Positions 31,021 to 39,651 of a stretch of DNA of 64,000 nt are shown here, one piece after another; position 1 is the stretch's first letter; every line of letters begins with the position of its first letter. The DNA comes from Hyphomonas sp. Mor2 (GTDB lineage Bacteria; Pseudomonadota; Alphaproteobacteria; Caulobacterales; Hyphomonadaceae), in contig NZ_CP017718.1 in assembly GCF_001854405.1 (NCBI RefSeq), positions 1,984,001 to 2,048,000 of the forward strand, in the 5' to 3' direction. A model generated the notes under the pieces. That model was not told the origin of the DNA, made no database searches, and saw only the letters and a program-made list of their open reading frames with translations. Both the position numbers and the translations under genes were made by a program.

Positions 31021-32442
31021 TTATGAAACGGCGTGCTGCACATCGCGGCGCGCCGTTTTTCTTTCCAGAATGAACCATTGCAGACTGCCGGCAATGAACA
31101 GGGTAATCGTGATCGCCTCCATCATGCCCTGCACGCCGCGGTCCCAGCTAACCGCCATGACATAGCAAAGCGGAATCATCAGCGCGAAGAAGGAGGTGAT
31201 GTGGATGGCCGTCGGCAGCCAGATCACGCCTTGTGCCCGCATCGCCATTGAGGCCGTCGCCTGAAGCCCGTCAAATGTCGTTGCCAGAGCCGCATAGATC
31301 AGCATGGCTGCAATCGCAGGGGCGAGCAGCGTCCCGTCAATGCTCGCCTCGGAATTGACCAGAAGCAAAGCGACCGGCGTATTGAAAATATAGATCAGGA
31401 CGGCCAGTCCTGCGCCCAACACAAAGGTCGCCGCGACGCCGAGCCGCGACGCATCTTTCACGCCCTGCCAGTCCCCCCGTCCGACATGTTCAGCCACCCG
31501 CACACTGGTGGCTGTGCCGATGCCGAGGAAGAACATGAAGCAGAAGCCCATGACCTGAACCGAATAGCCATAGATCGCGTTCACCGCGACGCTGACAAAG
31601 GCGGCGATTGTGTAGGTCAGGTTGAACCCGCCCCACTCTGCGATGTTAGAGACCGCTGTACCGCCACCCACGGTCATCTGACGGCGGGCTTCATCCTCTG
31701 GACCAGGCTCGGATGGCTTCAGTGCTGGCGTGAGCCAGATGACAAAGCCGATCAGAGCAATCGTGATCGCCCAGCGCGAGCCAACTGTCGCCCAGGCCAC
31801 GCCTTCACCACCCATTTGCGGCATCCCCCACCAGCCCAGCACCAGGGCCAGGTCGATGACCAGATTTACGCCAACGCCGAGATAGGACGTGATCGTCACG
31901 ATCAGCGGACGGCGCAGCGCTTCAAGATAATAGCTGCACACGGTCGACATCATGAAACCAAGCAAGCTGAGCGACAGAATTTGCGTAATCAGGGCTGTTT
32001 CAGCCGCAAACTCGTCCGGCGTCATGGAGGCGCTGATGGTCTCGTTCGGATTGATCTGCACGAACAGGAACTGAAACAGCGGCGCCGCAACAAGATAAAC
32101 CATACCAGTGACCAACAGGCCAATGAGCACCGCCCAGCTCATGCCCCGCCGGAAGATCCGGCCGGACAGATGTTCCTGCCCGCGTCCGACCAGCTCAGAC
32201 GTCAGCACCTGTACCCCAAGCAGGATGCCCATGCCAAAGCCGAGCGTGATCCCGATCGGCAGCCAGGAATTCAGGATGAAGGCCAGCTCATGCTCCTGGC
32301 CTTTCACCTGGCCGAGCACGATCGCATCCGTCAGGCCCATCAACATCCACGACAGGCGTGAGATCGCGATCGGCCCTGACAGCCGCAAAAGGTCTAGAAT
32401 TTCAGAGGCCCGCGCCCAGGCGGGCCATGCCCGCTGGGTCAT
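31021..32442 (-). CDS. MATE-family multidrug exporter
   Basis: 473 aa with about 12 TM helices in two halves (roughly 15-230 and 255-460) and no signal peptide: the layout of the multidrug and toxic compound extrusion family, which is driven by Na+ or H+. MLMGLTDAIVLGQV in TM1 and the mirrored VAEHVGRGDWQGV loop in the second half are typical. It starts 15 bp after the DAHP synthase gene and is probably co-transcribed. Substrate unknown. Confidence 0.92.
   Translation of the reverse strand: MTQRAWPAWARASEILDLLRLSGPIAISRLSWMLMGLTDAIVLGQVKGQEHELAFILNSWLPIGITLGFGMGILLGVQVLTSELVGRGQEHLSGRIFRRGMSWAVLIGLLVTGMVYLVAAPLFQFLFVQINPNETISASMTPDEFAAETALITQILSLSLLGFMMSTVCSYYLEALRRPLIVTITSYLGVGVNLVIDLALVLGWWGMPQMGGEGVAWATVGSRWAITIALIGFVIWLTPALKPSEPGPEDEARRQMTVGGGTAVSNIAEWGGFNLTYTIAAFVSVAVNAIYGYSVQVMGFCFMFFLGIGTATSVRVAEHVGRGDWQGVKDASRLGVAATFVLGAGLAVLIYIFNTPVALLLVNSEASIDGTLLAPAIAAMLIYAALATTFDGLQATASMAMRAQGVIWLPTAIHITSFFALMIPLCYVMAVSWDRGVQGMMEAITITLFIAGSLQWFILERKTARRDVQHAVS
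31027..31064 (+). terminator. Possible HU terminator overlapping the MATE 3' end
   Basis: AACGGCG and CGCCGTT form a 7-bp stem around a 17-nt loop, followed by TTTCTTT. It starts 28 bp after the HU stop and lies over the last codons of the convergent MATE gene. The long loop lowers confidence. Confidence 0.4.
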
Positions 32443-32457
32443 GGTTAAACGTCCTGA

Positions 32458-33837
32458 TTATCCGGCTACGCGAGATGGCATGGGGGAAACGTCCTTATAC
32501 TCCAGAAGCTTCTCTGCGATCAGGAAGGCAAGTTCAAGGGCCTGTTCGCCATTTAGGCGAGGATCACAATGAGTGTGGTATCTGGATGACAGGTCAGCTT
32601 CGGAGATGGCCTGCGCGCCGCCAATACATTCGGTGACGTCCTGGCCGGTCATTTCGAAATGAACCCCGCCTGGAACACAGCCCTCGGCATTGAGCACGTC
32701 GATGAAGCCGCGAACTTCGGTCAGGATGCGGTCGACGGGCCGCGTCTTGTAACCGGACTCGGTTTTCAACGTATTGCCGTGCATCGGATCGCAAGACCAG
32801 ACGACGGTCCGCCCGCTCTGCTTCACCGCTCTCGCCAGAGGCGCAAGCCCCGCTTCGACCCCTTCTGCACCAAAGCGCGAGATCAGGGTGATCCGGCCCG
32901 CTTCATTCTCAGGGTTGAGCGTTTCGATGATCCGGAGCAACTCATCAGCTTCGAGGCCCGGGCCGCATTTCATGCCGATCGGGTTCTTCACGCCCTTGCA
33001 GAATTCCACATGGGCATGATCTACCTGACGGGTGCGATGGCCGATCCATAACATGTGCGCGGACGTGTCGTACCAGTCGCCGGACGTTGAATCGATCCGG
33101 GTCATGGCCTCTTCATAACCGAGCAACAGGGCTTCGTGCGACGTATAGACCTCGACCTGCGCCATTTGCGGGACTTCCTGAGAGGTCACGCCGCAGGCGC
33201 GCATGAAGTCCAGCGCGTCACTGATCTTGTCCGCCATTTCGCGGTAACGCTCACCCAGCGGAGAGCGGTCGACAAAACCCAGCATCCACTGGTGGACATT
33301 GGACAGATCCGCATAACCACCGCGCGAGAACGCGCGCACCAGGTTCAGCGTCGACGCTGACTGCGAATAGGCCCGAATAAGGCGCTCAGGGTCGGGTGTC
33401 CGCGACGCTTCGCTGAAGTCCATCCCATTGATGTTGTCGCCCCGATAGGAGGGTAGCGTCACCCCATCAATCTCTTCCACTGGCGACGAACGGGGCTTGC
33501 CGAACTGACCCGCCAGGCGACCGACTTTGACCACAGGCTTCGAAGCCGCATAGGTCAGTACCACCGCCATTTGCAGCAGAACACGCAAAGTGTCGCGAAT
33601 ATTGTCCGCGCTGAATTCCTTGAAACTTTCGGCACAATCGCCGCCCTGTAGAAGGAAGGCCTCGCCCGCCGCAACGCTCGCCAGACGCTGTTTCAGCGTG
33701 CGCACTTCGCCAGCAAAAACCAGTGGCGGAAACGCAGCCAGACGCTGCTCGACATCTTTCAGGTGGTCGAGGTCCGGATAGTCTTCCGGGATGTGCTTTG
33801 CCGGGCGTGCGCGCCAGCTGCTGGGCGTCCAGGTCAT
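32458..33837 (-). CDS. Class II 3-deoxy-7-phosphoheptulonate (DAHP) synthase
   Basis: First shikimate-pathway enzyme, joining phosphoenolpyruvate and erythrose 4-phosphate. The 459-aa length and motifs ([57 protein letters not shown]) mark the plant-like class II type. The metal-binding Cys in GGDCAE is present, as are the His and Glu residues in DPMHGN and HFEMTG. ATG start follows AAGGAGAAG, a strong ribosome site. A feedback mode cannot be inferred. Confidence 0.95.
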
Positions 33838-33974
33838 GGGCTTCTCCTTAAGGTCGCGCTTTATGCACAGGCAATGTCACACAATCAAGCTTTACCCTGC
33901 CGATATGACATGAAATTGTGGTGCTCGAAGAATACGGATAATAGCGCAAACCCTCCCAGTTGGATGCTTCGTAA

Positions 33975-35282
33975 ATGTCGCAACTCTTTATTGCCCATGG
34001 CCATCGCGATGTAGATCCGCTTCTGCAAGTGCATGAAGCGATGCGCCGGGCGTCCGTTCCAACCTGGTACACGCCCGCTGGCAGCAAGGATTTCGAGCCG
34101 GAATCCGTCAATGCAGCAATAGATGACGCGTTTGGCATGGTGGTGCTGGTCTCAGCCTCATCGATCCGGTCAAAAGCCGTTCAGGAGCAGCTGCAAATCG
34201 CGCATGAGCGCGGCCTCAAACTGTTTCCGATCCGGGCCGACAATGCGCGCCTGTCAAAACAGTTCAAAACCATCCTCGCCGATCAACTCACGGATTCCCT
34301 CAATGATGAGGGGGCGCTGGAGCGCCTGGTTCAGCAGGTCAAGGAGCGCTATGAGCGCCGCTGCCCGGTGATTTCGGTGATGAATCTCAAAGGCGGCGTC
34401 GGCAAGACCACGGTGAGCAGCCAGGTTTTCGGGACCTGGCAGTCCAGTCTTGGGGGTCGCACGCTGCTGATCGACCTCGATCCGCAATACAATCTCACGC
34501 AGACCTTCTTCAATATGGATCATGCCGACGCGAGTTCAGCGCGCGACAAATCCGTGATTTCTCTGTTCGAACGCTCGCGCCTGCATGCATATGACACGAT
34601 TTCTCCGTCGGAGAGCTGGTCGGAGATCAATACCGAGCCCTTTGAACCAGCAGCACGGGACGTGATCAGCCACGATATTCTGGCGGGTGAAGACGCACCG
34701 GGCGGCCGGTTCGACCTGATCTCCGGACAGTTCGAGATTTCCAAATACGCATTTGCCAAGGGCCCGGAGGCTCTGGCTCTGGTCGGATCAAATTTCCGGC
34801 GCATGATCGATTATTATCGCAGCGAGTACGATCTGATCGTGTTTGACACCAATCCAAACGCCACGTTCCTCACCCGCTGCGCTCTGGAGGCCGCGGACCG
34901 CGTCCTCGCCCCCATGCATGCCGACGCCTATTCGCTGCGCGGCGTGAAACTGCTCAACCAGGTGATGCAGGAACAGATCAGCGATGAGAAACGTCCGGAT
35001 CTCTCCATCCTGTTCAATGCCGTGGGGCGATCAGAGCAATCGAACTTTGAAGCCGATGCCCGCAATGGCGCATTCAACGCACAAGCCGGTTTTGACCTGG
35101 CTGGCGCCCTGCTCAGCAGCGCCCTGCCGCGCTCAGGCCATCTCAATGTCAGAACACCCGAGCTTGAGGATGCGCCCTGGAAGCAGCTGGTCATCCATAA
35201 TGGTCGCGGTGGCGGCTTGAAGCGCATGCGCGAAACGCTGAAAGGCATCGCGGCTGAGATCAAGCAACTCGTGGACGACTAG
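33975..35282 (+). CDS. TIR-ParA fusion protein
   Basis: 435 aa. Residues ~1-100 match a bacterial TIR domain: LFIAHGHRDVDP, SVPTWYTPAG, then MVVLVSASSIRSKAVQEQLQIAHERGLKLFPIRAD. Without gaps, the catalytic Glu position falls on Gln72 with Glu71 next to it, so NADase activity is open. Residues ~130-430 are a ParA/MinD-type ATPase: deviant Walker A KGGVGKTT at 139-146, LLIDLDPQYN, and Walker B LIVFDTNPNATF with Asp about 291. No parB, parS or partner gene is adjacent. Its stop codon overlaps the convergent BCCT stop. TIR proteins often act in anti-phage immunity through NAD+ loss; that role here is inference. The ribosome site is weak. Confidence 0.88.
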   Translation: MSQLFIAHGHRDVDPLLQVHEAMRRASVPTWYTPAGSKDFEPESVNAAIDDAFGMVVLVSASSIRSKAVQEQLQIAHERGLKLFPIRADNARLSKQFKTILADQLTDSLNDEGALERLVQQVKERYERRCPVISVMNLKGGVGKTTVSSQVFGTWQSSLGGRTLLIDLDPQYNLTQTFFNMDHADASSARDKSVISLFERSRLHAYDTISPSESWSEINTEPFEPAARDVISHDILAGEDAPGGRFDLISGQFEISKYAFAKGPEALALVGSNFRRMIDYYRSEYDLIVFDTNPNATFLTRCALEAADRVLAPMHADAYSLRGVKLLNQVMQEQISDEKRPDLSILFNAVGRSEQSNFEADARNGAFNAQAGFDLAGALLSSALPRSGHLNVRTPELEDAPWKQLVIHNGRGGGLKRMRETLKGIAAEIKQLVDD

Positions 35283-36859
35283 TCTGCCGGGTGCATGCGA
35301 TCCAGCGCATCGGCCTGGAATACCATACGGATCAGGCAGACCTGCAGGCCCAGGACGACAAATAAGGCCGGTAGTCCTCCGACATTTGAGAGCATACGGA
35401 CGCCATCAATGCCGCTAAAGGCGACCATGATCCAGGCCATCAGGCAAAGCAGGATGACCCAGATGATTTTCAGGCGCGGCGCGCTTGGCTCGGTTTCGTC
35501 TGCTTCTGTCATCGGTTGATCGTGCGTCTTGCAGATTTGCGAGATGGCTTCGGTATTGCTGTCGGCGGCGGTGACATAGGAAATGAAGGACAGGATCAGG
35601 ACGATCGGAATGAGAAGGCCGGTCAGCGGAATGAAGTCGAGCGCGCGGAACATGACGCCTTCCGGCCCGACGGTATCCAGGGTGTCCTTCAGCACACCGC
35701 CTTGGGCCGCATCGGTCTCCATCGCGAAGACACCGAAAACGCTCATCCAGAGCATGGAGAACAGGGCCGGCAGGATCAGATTGACCAGCACGAAGGCGCG
35801 AACGGTATAGCCGCGCGCTATCCGCCCAAGGAACATCGCCGTTACCGGTGCCCAGGCGAGCCAATTGGCAAAATAGAAGGTCGTCCAGCTCTTCGCCCAT
35901 TCGCCGTCCTCGCTGGCCGCGCCGATGATCAAGGACCGGTCGAGAAACTCGCCGGCATAGGACAGCATCGCCTGGCCGCCCTGCGCGACAATCTCTGCGG
36001 TCGGTCCGAACGCGAAAATGACGGCGACGAAGACGAAGAAGAACCAGGTGTTCACGACCGACAGAACCCGAATCCCGCGCATCAGGCCCGTGAGCGAACT
36101 GATCAGTACAATCACCCCAATGGCCAGTGCCACGAGCGCCAAGAGGATCGGCCCGTTCGGCAACCCGGTCAGATCAGCCACGCCGCCTGAGAGCAGCAGC
36201 ATGCCTGCACCGAGTGAGGCGGCCATTCCCATGATCAAAGCCAGCAAGATAGCCGCGTCCAGCAGCGCTGCCAAAGCCGATGGCAAGGGCCGTCCGAGCA
36301 GCGCCACGAAGGGCCCTGACACAGAATAAGGCTTGCCGAGATTGTGATAGGCGAGCGCGAAGGTGAGCGCTGCCACGGTGTAGATGGCGTAAGGCGAGAT
36401 CGCCCAGTTCATGAAGAGGGTGACCAGACTGAAGGCCTTGGCCTCGTCGCTGCCCGGCGCGATGCCGCGCGCCGCGCTGCCCGGCTCGTAGAGATGATAC
36501 ATCGGTTCAGCCATGGCCCAGAACAGGATGCCGATGGCGATGGTCGTGCACAGCGTGATCGAGAACCAGCTCCAAGGCTGCAGCGTGCGTTGCGCCCCTA
36601 CCCCTCCGATTGTCACCTTGCCGAGCGGTGACAACATCACGCCGAAACTGGTCAGAACGAAGCCGAACACCGCCCAGGAAATCACATTCGAAAAGGTCGC
36701 CAGGATCCAGTCATTGAGCAATTTAGCGAAGGCCAGAAACACTTTTGGATCTATCATCGTTGCGATGACCGCCGCGATGAAGATCGACATCGGTACAAAG
36801 ATCACAAAAGGGCGCAACGAACTCTCGCGCGCCCTCAAGGATTGGATCAGACCGGCCAA
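35279..36859 (-). CDS. BCCT-family transporter
   Basis: 526 aa with about 12 TM helices, the betaine/carnitine/choline transporter fold. The family signature region reads WTTFYFANWLAWAPVTAMFLGRIARG; compared with BetP-type proteins some Trp residues of the substrate box are changed, so the substrate may not be glycine betaine. It could take up a compatible solute or another trimethylammonium compound with Na+ or H+. It converges on the TIR-ParA gene with a 4-bp overlap and starts 3 bp after the M16 lipoprotein gene ends, so it could be the last gene of that run. Confidence 0.9.
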   Translation of the reverse strand: MAGLIQSLRARESSLRPFVIFVPMSIFIAAVIATMIDPKVFLAFAKLLNDWILATFSNVISWAVFGFVLTSFGVMLSPLGKVTIGGVGAQRTLQPWSWFSITLCTTIAIGILFWAMAEPMYHLYEPGSAARGIAPGSDEAKAFSLVTLFMNWAISPYAIYTVAALTFALAYHNLGKPYSVSGPFVALLGRPLPSALAALLDAAILLALIMGMAASLGAGMLLLSGGVADLTGLPNGPILLALVALAIGVIVLISSLTGLMRGIRVLSVVNTWFFFVFVAVIFAFGPTAEIVAQGGQAMLSYAGEFLDRSLIIGAASEDGEWAKSWTTFYFANWLAWAPVTAMFLGRIARGYTVRAFVLVNLILPALFSMLWMSVFGVFAMETDAAQGGVLKDTLDTVGPEGVMFRALDFIPLTGLLIPIVLILSFISYVTAADSNTEAISQICKTHDQPMTEADETEPSAPRLKIIWVILLCLMAWIMVAFSGIDGVRMLSNVGGLPALFVVLGLQVCLIRMVFQADALDRMHPAD

Positions 36860-36862
36860 GAC

Positions 36863-38287
36863 TTACCCGTCCAGGCCTTCCGGTTCTCCGACGATGACGA
36901 AGGTAAAGTTCTCCGGATCGAGATATTCGGCTGCCACGCGATTGACATCTTCCAGCGTCACGGCCTCGACCAAAGCGTTGCGCGTGTCGAAAAAGTCGAC
37001 GGGTAATTCGTCCAGACGAACGCCCATCATCCGCCCCGCGATCTTGGCGTTGGAGTCAAAACCAAGCGGATAGGATCCGGTCAAATAGGCCTTGGCATCC
37101 TCGAGCTCCTGCTCGGTCATGCCATCGGCGACCATTTTTTCCATATTCTCTTTGACGCCTGCAATGAACTCACCGGCGCTTTCATTCTTGGTCTGGCCAC
37201 CGCCGCTCCACAGCTGGATTTTCTCATCACTGCTGACATTGGTGTAGACGCCATAGGTCAGGCCCTTGTCGACCCGCAAATCCTGCATCAGACGGCTTTG
37301 GAAGCCGCCCCCGCCAAAGGTGTAGTTGAGCACGACAGCGGTGTAGAAGTCCGGATCGTCGCGGCGCATGGCCGGGGCCGCGAATGTCACCAGGCTCTGC
37401 GGCTGGGGCAATTCAACGGTGATCGGCTCGGCGCTCGCTGCAGCCAGGACGACGTCGTCGGTCTCTACCGTCTCGCTGGTATCGGGCAGATCTGCGACCG
37501 CCGCATCAATAAGGGGGGCGAGTTGTTCCGGCGACATGGCACCGACCGCCGTGACCAGCATGCCATCCTTGACCATTAGCAGGTCCTTGTGTGCCCGCAT
37601 CGCGTCCTGGGTGATTGCAGCCAGGCTCTCGGCGCTGGTATCGCGGGCATAGGCATGATCCGGATACAGCGCGGCTGCACGCGCGCGCGCGGCCAGATAC
37701 TGCGCATTGGTTTCCCGTGTCTGCAGACTGACTTCCTGTTCGCGCTGGAAGCGCTCAAACGGGCCGTCATCGAAGCGGGGCTGCGACAGGGCCAAGGCGA
37801 TCATGCCGAATGAGTCTTCGGCATTATCCGTCAGCATGGAGGCATTACAGTAAGTGTTCTCATTACCGGCACCGCAGGAAAAGCTCATATTCAGCTCTTC
37901 CATGGTTTTGAAAAAGGCTTGCGCATCAAGCTCTCCGGCCCCTTCATTCATGTGATAGACCATGGCATTGGTCAGGCCTTCCTGGCCGACCGGGTCATTG
38001 GTCTCACCGCCTTGCCAGGCCATACGCAAAGACAAGATCGGGATGGACGGCTCTTCGACCAACCAAACCGAAACCCCGCCGGGTGTGGTAAATTGCTGGA
38101 TCGTGGCGAACTCGCCATCGTGAACTTCAACCGCCAGTGTGGACGCGGCGGCGGTGGCGAGGTCCTCGGTTGAAACAGATGTGACGTCCTCGGTTGCGAC
38201 CGATGAGACGTCGTCGGTTGCAACGGATGTATTGCACGCGGTCAGGGCAATGGCTGCGGCTGTGCTGATCAGGAATGAAAGGCGCAT
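36863..38287 (-). CDS. M16-family peptidase homologue, lipoprotein, inactive site
   Basis: 474 aa. Lipoprotein signal with lipobox ALTAC (Cys18), a linker of three 8-residue repeats, then two M16 domains (~55-255, ~265-474). Where active M16 enzymes have HxxEH this protein has a sequence near YHMNEGAGELD, without the zinc motif, so it is predicted to be the non-catalytic partner. It retains the R/Y pair region (GGGGFQSRLMQDLRVDKGLTYGVY) of the C-terminal domain that contacts substrate. It follows the active M16 gene by 2 bp, matching the known two-subunit arrangement of M16B peptidases. Confidence 0.9.
   Translation of the reverse strand: MRLSFLISTAAAIALTACNTSVATDDVSSVATEDVTSVSTEDLATAAASTLAVEVHDGEFATIQQFTTPGGVSVWLVEEPSIPILSLRMAWQGGETNDPVGQEGLTNAMVYHMNEGAGELDAQAFFKTMEELNMSFSCGAGNENTYCNASMLTDNAEDSFGMIALALSQPRFDDGPFERFQREQEVSLQTRETNAQYLAARARAAALYPDHAYARDTSAESLAAITQDAMRAHKDLLMVKDGMLVTAVGAMSPEQLAPLIDAAVADLPDTSETVETDDVVLAAASAEPITVELPQPQSLVTFAAPAMRRDDPDFYTAVVLNYTFGGGGFQSRLMQDLRVDKGLTYGVYTNVSSDEKIQLWSGGGQTKNESAGEFIAGVKENMEKMVADGMTEQELEDAKAYLTGSYPLGFDSNAKIAGRMMGVRLDELPVDFFDTRNALVEAVTLEDVNRVAAEYLDPENFTFVIVGEPEGLDG
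38156..38227 (-). repeat. Three 24-bp in-frame repeats in the M16 lipoprotein linker
   Basis: Encodes residues 21-44 as three units of the pattern S-V-(A/S)-T-(D/E)-D-(V/L)-x. The nucleotide units share GACGTC(C/G)TCGGTTG, so they arose by tandem duplication and could vary in number between strains. Confidence 0.7.
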
Positions 38288-38289
38288 GA

Positions 38290-39651
38290 TTAGAATTCCC
38301 CTTCTTCGGGCAGCAAATGCGCCTCAATATAGTGATTGTCTGCGGCGAAAACTTTCCGGACGGCGCTCAGCGCCTGTTCGGTGGTAATGGCGCGAATATC
38401 GTCTTCATAGCTCATCAGGTCTTCAATCGACCCACCAATTGCCATCCAGCTGCCAAACAGCTGCGCCATGTTCTGCTGATTGTCGCGCGCATAGATGGCC
38501 GAGGCGGCCATTGAATTGCGTACGCGTTCGACATCTTCGTCGCTGAAACCGGTTTCGAGCAGGGAACTGATCTCTGCCATAACCGCCGTTTCCAGCTCCT
38601 CCATGCTCACGCCCGGACTGGGCGTCGCGTAGATCACCGCCGGGCCATCATCATGCAGACCGGTCCAAGCAAAGGTCCCTGCATTCACAGCGACCTTCTG
38701 CTCTTCGACCAGTGCGACATACAGCAAGCTGGTATTGCCGCCGCCAAGCACATCCAGACCAACATCCAGAGCCAGGGAGAAGTCACGGTCCCGCAACTGG
38801 CTGGTGCCATTATAGTAGCGATACCAAACCGGTTGGCGCACTTTCGGATCCGAATGGGTCAGCTCCTTGGTTTCAGTCAGCGCCGGGACGTCCGCCCATT
38901 TGCGCGTGCCATCGACCAGACCTGACGGTTCGATCTTGCCATAATGCTCTTCGGCCAGGGCTCGCACCTCGTCGCCTGTCACATCGCCGGCGACGACCAG
39001 GATTGTATTCTCTGGAGAGTAATATTTCTTGTAGAAATCAATTCCGTCTTGCGGGGTCAGAGCTTCGACCTCATCCATCCGCCCGATCACCGTGATTTCA
39101 TATGGATGGTCTTTCCAGAACTCCGCCAGAACCTGTTCTCGCAAAATCACGCCAGGATTGTTGTCGACCCGCTGACGGCGCTCTTCTTTGACGACATCGC
39201 GTTCAGTGATGAAGCTGCCTTCCGGGTCTTCATCAATGATCAGGTCCGTCATCCGCTCGGCTTCGAGTTCCATCATCTTGCCAAGATGCTGTTTGGCGAC
39301 GCGTTGATAGTAGGCGGTATAATCCCAGCTGGTGAACGCATTATGCTGGCCGCCGACCCGCGCGATGGTCGAGTCAAACTCGCCATCTTCAAGATCGTCC
39401 GTCTCCTTGAACATGACATGCTCAAACAGGTGCGCGATGCCTGACTTTCCCGGGTCTTCATCAACCGCGCCGACCTTGTACCAGATCATATGGGTGACGA
39501 CGGGAGCGCGGTGGTCCGGCAAGACGACGACATCCATGCCATTGTCGAGCGTAAAGGTCTCCGGTGCCCAGGCGTCCGCGGCCTCCTCTGCGAAGGCGGT
39601 TCCTCCGCACAAAACCATGGCGGTCAGCCCGCCGGATATCCAATGTTTCAA
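38290..39651 (-). CDS. M16-family zinc peptidase, active subunit
   Basis: 453-aa exported protease with signal peptide (1-21, TAFAEEA). The inverted zinc motif HLFEH is at 74-78 with the distal Glu in VKEERRQ, so the catalytic set is complete. A second M16 domain follows at ~230-440. Together with the next gene it should form a heterodimeric clamshell peptidase that degrades peptides or misfolded fragments in the periplasm. It starts 41 bp after the DUF3035 gene. Confidence 0.94.
   Translation of the reverse strand: MKHWISGGLTAMVLCGGTAFAEEAADAWAPETFTLDNGMDVVVLPDHRAPVVTHMIWYKVGAVDEDPGKSGIAHLFEHVMFKETDDLEDGEFDSTIARVGGQHNAFTSWDYTAYYQRVAKQHLGKMMELEAERMTDLIIDEDPEGSFITERDVVKEERRQRVDNNPGVILREQVLAEFWKDHPYEITVIGRMDEVEALTPQDGIDFYKKYYSPENTILVVAGDVTGDEVRALAEEHYGKIEPSGLVDGTRKWADVPALTETKELTHSDPKVRQPVWYRYYNGTSQLRDRDFSLALDVGLDVLGGGNTSLLYVALVEEQKVAVNAGTFAWTGLHDDGPAVIYATPSPGVSMEELETAVMAEISSLLETGFSDEDVERVRNSMAASAIYARDNQQNMAQLFGSWMAIGGSIEDLMSYEDDIRAITTEQALSAVRKVFAADNHYIEAHLLPEEGEF

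Follow-up and report, generated by a model that had tools for sequence, protein, structure and literature searches.

The window, the 64,000-nucleotide stretch of Hyphomonas sp. Mor2 DNA analysed here, carries a gene (33975–35282, + strand) for a 435-aa protein in which a TIR domain (residues 1–128) is fused to a Soj/ParA-type ATPase (residues 129–435), as indicated by Pfam matches and by comparison of AlphaFold models with PDB folds. A TIR domain is usually an immune enzyme and has been studied as such; ParA ATPases, which act at DNA surfaces, have been studied as positioning motors. Comparison of homologues and their loci suggests, as our best reading, that the window protein is a domesticated, partnerless descendant of a module made of TIR-ParA and a small partner. 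We put at about 55% the probability that it acts as a non-enzymatic, orphan ParA positioning or scaffolding switch, and neither as a partition ATPase nor as an NAD-depleting effector.

Domain architecture and selection

The TIR domain (33975–34358, +) matched Pfam TIR_2 (PF13676) with 30.6 bits, against a curated cut-off of 28 bits. When the AlphaFold model was compared with the PDB, TIR chains headed both fold lists, with DNPH1 close behind, and the sequence profile of this half matched the AbTir, PdTir and Cat1 chains. The initial annotation had proposed a TIR fold for the N-terminal segment and had suggested comparing a predicted structure with known TIR folds; the Pfam match and the fold lists bear the proposal out. 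The ATPase domain (34359–35282, +), which had also been recognised in the same frame, was confirmed by its match to Pfam AAA_31, by its ParA fold and by its invariant motifs, which comprise a deviant Walker A with signature Lys139 and Walker Lys144 and the further Walker motifs, all of them intact in the window protein. The closest folds to this half were pNOB8 ParA and Soj, and it was nearer to DNA-binding ParA than to MinD.

Both domains appear to be under purifying selection. In pairs with the proteins of L006, L007 and L008, dN/dS (Nei-Gojobori) was 0.02–0.06 in both domains and rose up to 0.20 in more distant pairs, values that are rough because dS exceeded 1 in 10/12.

A stretch of the form HxGRGGGLK..R at the C-terminus (residues 408–419; window 35196–35231) was nearly invariant in the window lineage and was not seen in L122 or L069; it is possibly a lineage-specific contact with DNA or a partner. 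Homologues are named in their sources as 'chromosome partitioning protein', 'AAA family ATPase', 'cellulose biosynthesis protein BcsQ' and, in one case, 'TIR domain-containing protein'. One protein with 81% identity (P0052) is recorded under a eukaryote source, probably through contamination.

A constant locus beside aroG

The TIR-ParA gene lies divergent from a class-II DAHP synthase gene, here called aroG (32458–33837, − strand; Pfam PF01474, E 1.3e-211), across an intergenic stretch of 137 bp (33838–33974). By tblastn, the same arrangement with a spacing of 137–175 bp was found in 38/38 sampled Hyphomonadaceae loci, which represent 37 genomes because L010 and L065 come from the same genome. 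A MATE-type transporter gene (31021–32442, −; Pfam MatE) is part of the conserved neighbourhood. The convergent neighbour was a pyridine nucleotide-disulphide reductase gene, here called gor, in 28 of the 38 loci, followed by rpiA- and glmU-type genes, and a BCCT transporter gene in five, the window being of this type (35279–36859, −; Pfam PF02028; the ORF ends overlap by 4 bp). The BCCT transporter and M16-type peptidase genes that stand at 35279–39651 in place of the usual gor, rpiA and glmU are a local replacement in the window's subclade.

Among 105 Hyphomonadaceae genomes, 66 gave one match each at E≤1e-30, two of these being partial; by genus label, the gene was present in 19/29 genomes of the window's genus and in 41/42 of another (g4). 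We examined 16 loci without TIR-ParA. At eight of them aroG and gor were 131–265 bp apart with nothing between, at four another ParA gene occupied the junction (L165–L168), and at four the block was lost or rearranged. On an aroG tree of 53 rows, the presence and absence of TIR-ParA required five changes. Because the locus is constant, and in view of this distribution on the aroG tree, we take the pattern to reflect vertical inheritance, probably with several losses. Across the family the gene is patchy, and it is dispensable rather than essential.

The ParA genes at the junction of L165–L168, and a similar one between gor and aroG at L119, encode a second, TIR-less ParA-like ATPase of about 285 aa or more, each followed by its own ORF of 122–151 aa ending in KLFEY or KLFDY. 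L165–L168 have no window-type gene, and at L119 the TIR-less ParA and TIR-ParA systems stand side by side.

The flanking genes of the window gene are those for DAHP synthase and the BCCT transporter, with no adjacent parB, and the protein reached the cut-off of no NCBIfam partition model (NF041546, ParA_partition, 71.8 of 180 bits). The initial annotation had allowed that homologues might always lie beside parB and plasmid replication genes; the constant neighbour in the sampled Hyphomonadaceae loci proved to be aroG. No PADLOC family was matched among the nine neighbours in the window, and the protein itself gave only weak PADLOC matches (best 14.4 bits, E 0.004), which does not place it in Thoeris, SPARTA or another listed TIR defence system.

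A mobile or plasmid origin was considered and rejected on the fixed aroG locus and on searches with a relative, L066, used as the query in place of the window protein. By tblastn, L066 matched 33 of 72,556 plasmid records and 16 of 50,697 phage records, none of which reached 80% coverage of L066. Among the rows listed, each of the 25 from plasmids fell in the ParA half or started at its edge (residue 113 on), as did 14 of the 15 from phages, the remaining one covering residues 62–176. When viral contigs were searched with an accessory profile (A6) and ParA-half patterns, the best 80 of 378 relatives all started at residue 113 or later.

Relatives and a small downstream partner

In the order, the family profile was found in 84/348 sampled genomes, among them genomes of a second family (f3, with Vitreimonas and Terricaulis as names in the sources) and of a third (f4), represented by L122. 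Outside the window lineage, TIR-ParA was divergent from aroG in 20 of 26 loci, 131–1668 bp apart, and six had no aroG in the stretch. The loci thus fell into three groups: the f1 type, which is the window lineage; the f3 type, likewise linked to aroG; and accessory copies. In the tree, the f1 type formed one clade (97/94), as did the f3 type (100/99), and L122 was sister of the f1 type (100/99). The accessory copies L066, L067 and L071 grouped, weakly supported (85/66), nearer to the f1 type; three other accessory rows lay on very long branches. L122 has the same aroG locus, Glu72 and the partner described below; L050, a basal f1-type member, has Glu72 and no partner. In one genus (g23; L106, L107, L110, L116 and L120), an ORF of about 440–510 aa, by its look a putative membrane protein, lies between TIR-ParA and aroG.

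In class searches, profile A1 found 2/385 genomes (four candidates scored per genome), both of the window's family. Profile A3 found 8/318 (five candidates scored per genome), including the same two family members; of the remaining matches, five genomes had one half only and one (G464) had the two halves in different places. Distant copies may have been missed by these searches. A protein of a Myxococcales MAG (P0279) has both Pfam domains, and the TIR-ParA architecture therefore reaches beyond the window's group.

Directly downstream of TIR-ParA, 25 of the 26 loci outside the window lineage encode a same-strand ORF of 128–141 aa, which starts with a 4-base overlap in 18 of them; the other locus, L118, has only a fragment. 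These ORFs form one alignable family of low identity (12–76% against the first of 18 aligned rows), and the proteins are basic (pI 9.5–11.0, with the first 60 residues net basic in 25/25). Four partner proteins were scanned and gave no Pfam match above cut-off. A profile built from the 25 ORFs, which consequently match it by construction, found nothing at the window gene or its 38 lineage loci, so that the window gene does not belong among orphan ParA genes with a partner, and nothing elsewhere in the window's genome (G000) at E≤0.001. An ORF of at least 95 aa was present in the scanned downstream stretch at 11 of the 38 window-lineage loci, none matching the profile. The partner occurred in 2/105 family genomes, both lacking a window-type gene: in G032 it adjoins an accessory TIR-ParA, and in G033 the match is partial. 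The initial annotation had described the fusion as being without partition partners. This description fits the locus, where neither partner nor parB was found, but it misses that relatives carry a small gene directly downstream; judged against them, the partnerless state is a derived one in the window lineage.

Neighbours of accessory copies were scanned at L112, L123, L066 and L108, and L067 and L071 were left out. At L112 (4792–9277 and 9455–10702), TIR-ParA and its partner are surrounded by AbiTii, a second TIR-like protein (by PADLOC profiles) and a phage-type integrase, which makes this locus a candidate defence island; its TIR keeps the catalytic Glu. The other scanned loci showed nothing similar: the neighbours of L123, the Hirschia baltica copy with its partner, are genes of metabolism and transport, L108 lies beside a PLP enzyme, and three neighbours of L066 had no Pfam match. 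The setting of L112 weakly supports a defence ancestry of TIR-ParA.

Decay of the TIR active site

In the alignment to solved NADase TIRs, their conserved Glu fell on the column of Gln72, and the window protein accordingly has no catalytic Glu of the WxxxE motif. The initial annotation had already doubted the catalytic Glu on seeing Gln72 in its position, rightly as it turned out; Glu71, which it had noted next to this position, was rejected as the catalytic residue, since residue 71 varies among homologues. The accessible part of one study lists eight residues needed for the NADase activity of AbTir, the Glu and Trp of WxxxE among them (PMC11374754). Five of these columns were mapped by profile alignment (a chain numbering offset of 130 fits all five; V193, R215 and Y238 were left out), and the window protein departs from AbTir at every one of them, with A7, L17, T33, A68 and Q72.

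The columns were counted in proteins of 400–485 aa, comprising 119/120 nearest homologues (f1 type), 120/120 of a second list (f3 type) and 82/94 new proteins of a third list, each taken from the best 120 listed. An accessory-type set (n = 35; P0241–P0276 within the length range) was delimited by a cut of our own choosing, its members being accessory by likeness only and known from proteins alone. Among the best 120 listed for the f1 and f3 types each, Glu72 was present in 0/119 f1-type and 120/120 f3-type proteins and in 34/35 of the accessory set. On the same basis and in the same order, Trp68 (the W of WxxxE) was found in 0/119, 105/120 and 12/35 (with Phe in 16 of the accessory set), Asp33 in 8/119, 0/120 and 32/35, Ser7 in 19/119, 0/120 and 32/35, and Arg17 in 0/119, 86/120 and 7/35. 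Column 17 (AbTir R151) was given little weight because it varies within the accessory-type set as well. With this column set aside, the residues indicate a TIR site that is whole in the accessory type, half kept in the f3 type and gone in the f1 type.

The third list (82 proteins, among the best 120 listed) had E in 69 at column 72, D in 7, L in 2, H in 2, A in 1 and Y in 1. A count over 159 rows (42 loci-or-window rows plus P proteins of 420–460 aa), 154 of which belong to the window lineage, gave Q or D at this column in 153 of the 154, with E only in L050; the 14 f3-type tree rows had E in nine, D in three, A in one and H in one. Because of the substituted columns, we infer that the TIR of the window lineage has lost NADase activity. 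The f3 type is linked to aroG, yet it has Glu72 in 120/120 (among the best 120 listed) and in 9/14 tree rows; a housekeeping locus alone therefore does not imply a dead enzyme.

Discussion

In the reading that we favour, the ancestor would have been a two-gene module, TIR-ParA followed immediately by the gene for a small basic partner. The Hyphomonadaceae would then have lost this partner gene and the NADase site of the TIR, with both domains kept under purifying selection. The apparent loss of the TIR site and of the partner, set beside the retention of both domains, suggests that a household gene arose from an old defence module, and we infer such an ancestry in defence. Two single sequences, L122 with Glu72 and partner and L050 with Glu72 and no partner, point to a loss of the partner first and of the Glu second. 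By analogy with Soj, the ParA half may dimerise on ATP and bind nucleoid DNA without sequence preference, a plausible DNA switch. The TIR half may self-associate or dock another protein, and the ATPase cycle would then control where or when the TIR assembly forms. Against this reading, a patchy gene with empty aroG-gor junctions could also fit a patchy defence gene.

A more specific history is possible, at odds well short of even. A mobile anti-phage module, consisting of an NADase-competent TIR-ParA and its basic partner, might have been captured at the Caulobacterales aroG locus and converted stepwise into a cell-organisation ATPase, with the partner lost, then the Glu, and with the pseudo-TIR left as the built-in cargo or oligomerisation domain of ParA. 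If this is true, the accessory copies are an undescribed defence system.

The window protein might instead still serve immunity without being an enzyme, its degenerate TIR pairing with another TIR or effector in the role of adaptor, sensor or decoy. Patchy presence in the family fits a conditional defence gene, TIR-TIR assembly does not need the catalytic Glu, and the setting of L112 is in keeping with such a role. We nevertheless find this doubtful, as close pairs show conservation of both domains, at dN/dS values far below 1, and the nine neighbours include no recognisable defence gene. The initial annotation had supposed that DNA sensing by the ATPase switches on a TIR that consumes NAD. 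In favour of this idea, many defence proteins have TIR domains of this fold that act as NADases, related sets keep the Glu, and the surroundings of L112 include AbiTii, a second TIR-like protein and an integrase. Such an anti-phage effector is hard to reconcile with the five changed NADase columns, Glu72 being found in 0/119 (among the best 120 listed), with the fixed chromosomal locus at aroG and the PADLOC results for the protein and its neighbours, or with the lack of a full-length plasmid or phage match to the Glu-bearing L066 query, and we regard it as quite unlikely.

An enzyme of altered chemistry, with Q or D at column 72 replacing the Glu, would explain why this column is constrained (Q or D in 119/119, among the best 120 listed), but columns 7, 33 and 68, which AbTir needs, are changed too, and the idea seems very improbable. 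To a partition ATPase of the chromosome or a plasmid, stranded without parB and parS, we give the least credence of all. The ParA half has its nearest fold matches in pNOB8 ParA and Soj, and sources call the protein a 'chromosome partitioning protein'; however, its ParA_partition score lies below the cut-off, the constant neighbour is aroG and not a replication gene, the four scanned partner proteins of relatives lack a Pfam match above cut-off, and the genome has another ORF (270 aa, L003) that, judged by eye, resembles Soj.

The graded decay of the enzyme site from the accessory type to the aroG-linked types, together with a partnerless lineage, offers a natural series in which to study how an immune effector can take on a housekeeping role. 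A new defence module has a concrete candidate in those accessory copies that retain an intact site. The parts are of known kinds; their combination, the decay series and the partner are new as far as our searches of the open-licence literature reach, in which, within the accessible parts of articles that included PMC7159879 and PMC6963756, no TIR-ParA fusion was described.

The TIR fold is shared with AbTir, PdTir, SPARTA TIR-APAZ and Thoeris ThsB, with profile matches to the AbTir, PdTir and Cat1 chains. Compared with bacterial TIR NADases, the window protein has substitutions at the WxxxE Glu and Trp and at three other columns that AbTir needs, going by the accessible portion of PMC11374754. 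In the conflict systems covered by the available text of PMC7159879, TIR and MinD/ParA-like domains occur in the same system class, on separate proteins, and the MinD/ParA-like domain is predicted to be inactive; the window protein, by contrast, combines intact ATPase motifs with a degenerate TIR. With McdA-McdB, PpfA and ParC-ParP, it shares a ParA-type ATPase away from parABS and, in its relatives, a small basic downstream protein; it differs by the TIR fusion and by the absence of the partner in the window lineage. Orphan ParAs and partners with charged N-termini are covered in the accessible parts of PMC10241942 and PMC9178275, the former describing such partners of ParA/MinD ATPases, and the likeness of the relatives' basic partner to these proteins is a lead. 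Soj and pNOB8 ParA, the closest folds to its ParA half, are ParA-family Walker-type DNA-binding ATPases, from which the window protein is set apart by its N-terminal TIR, by a locus at which no ParB was seen and by its fixed place beside aroG.
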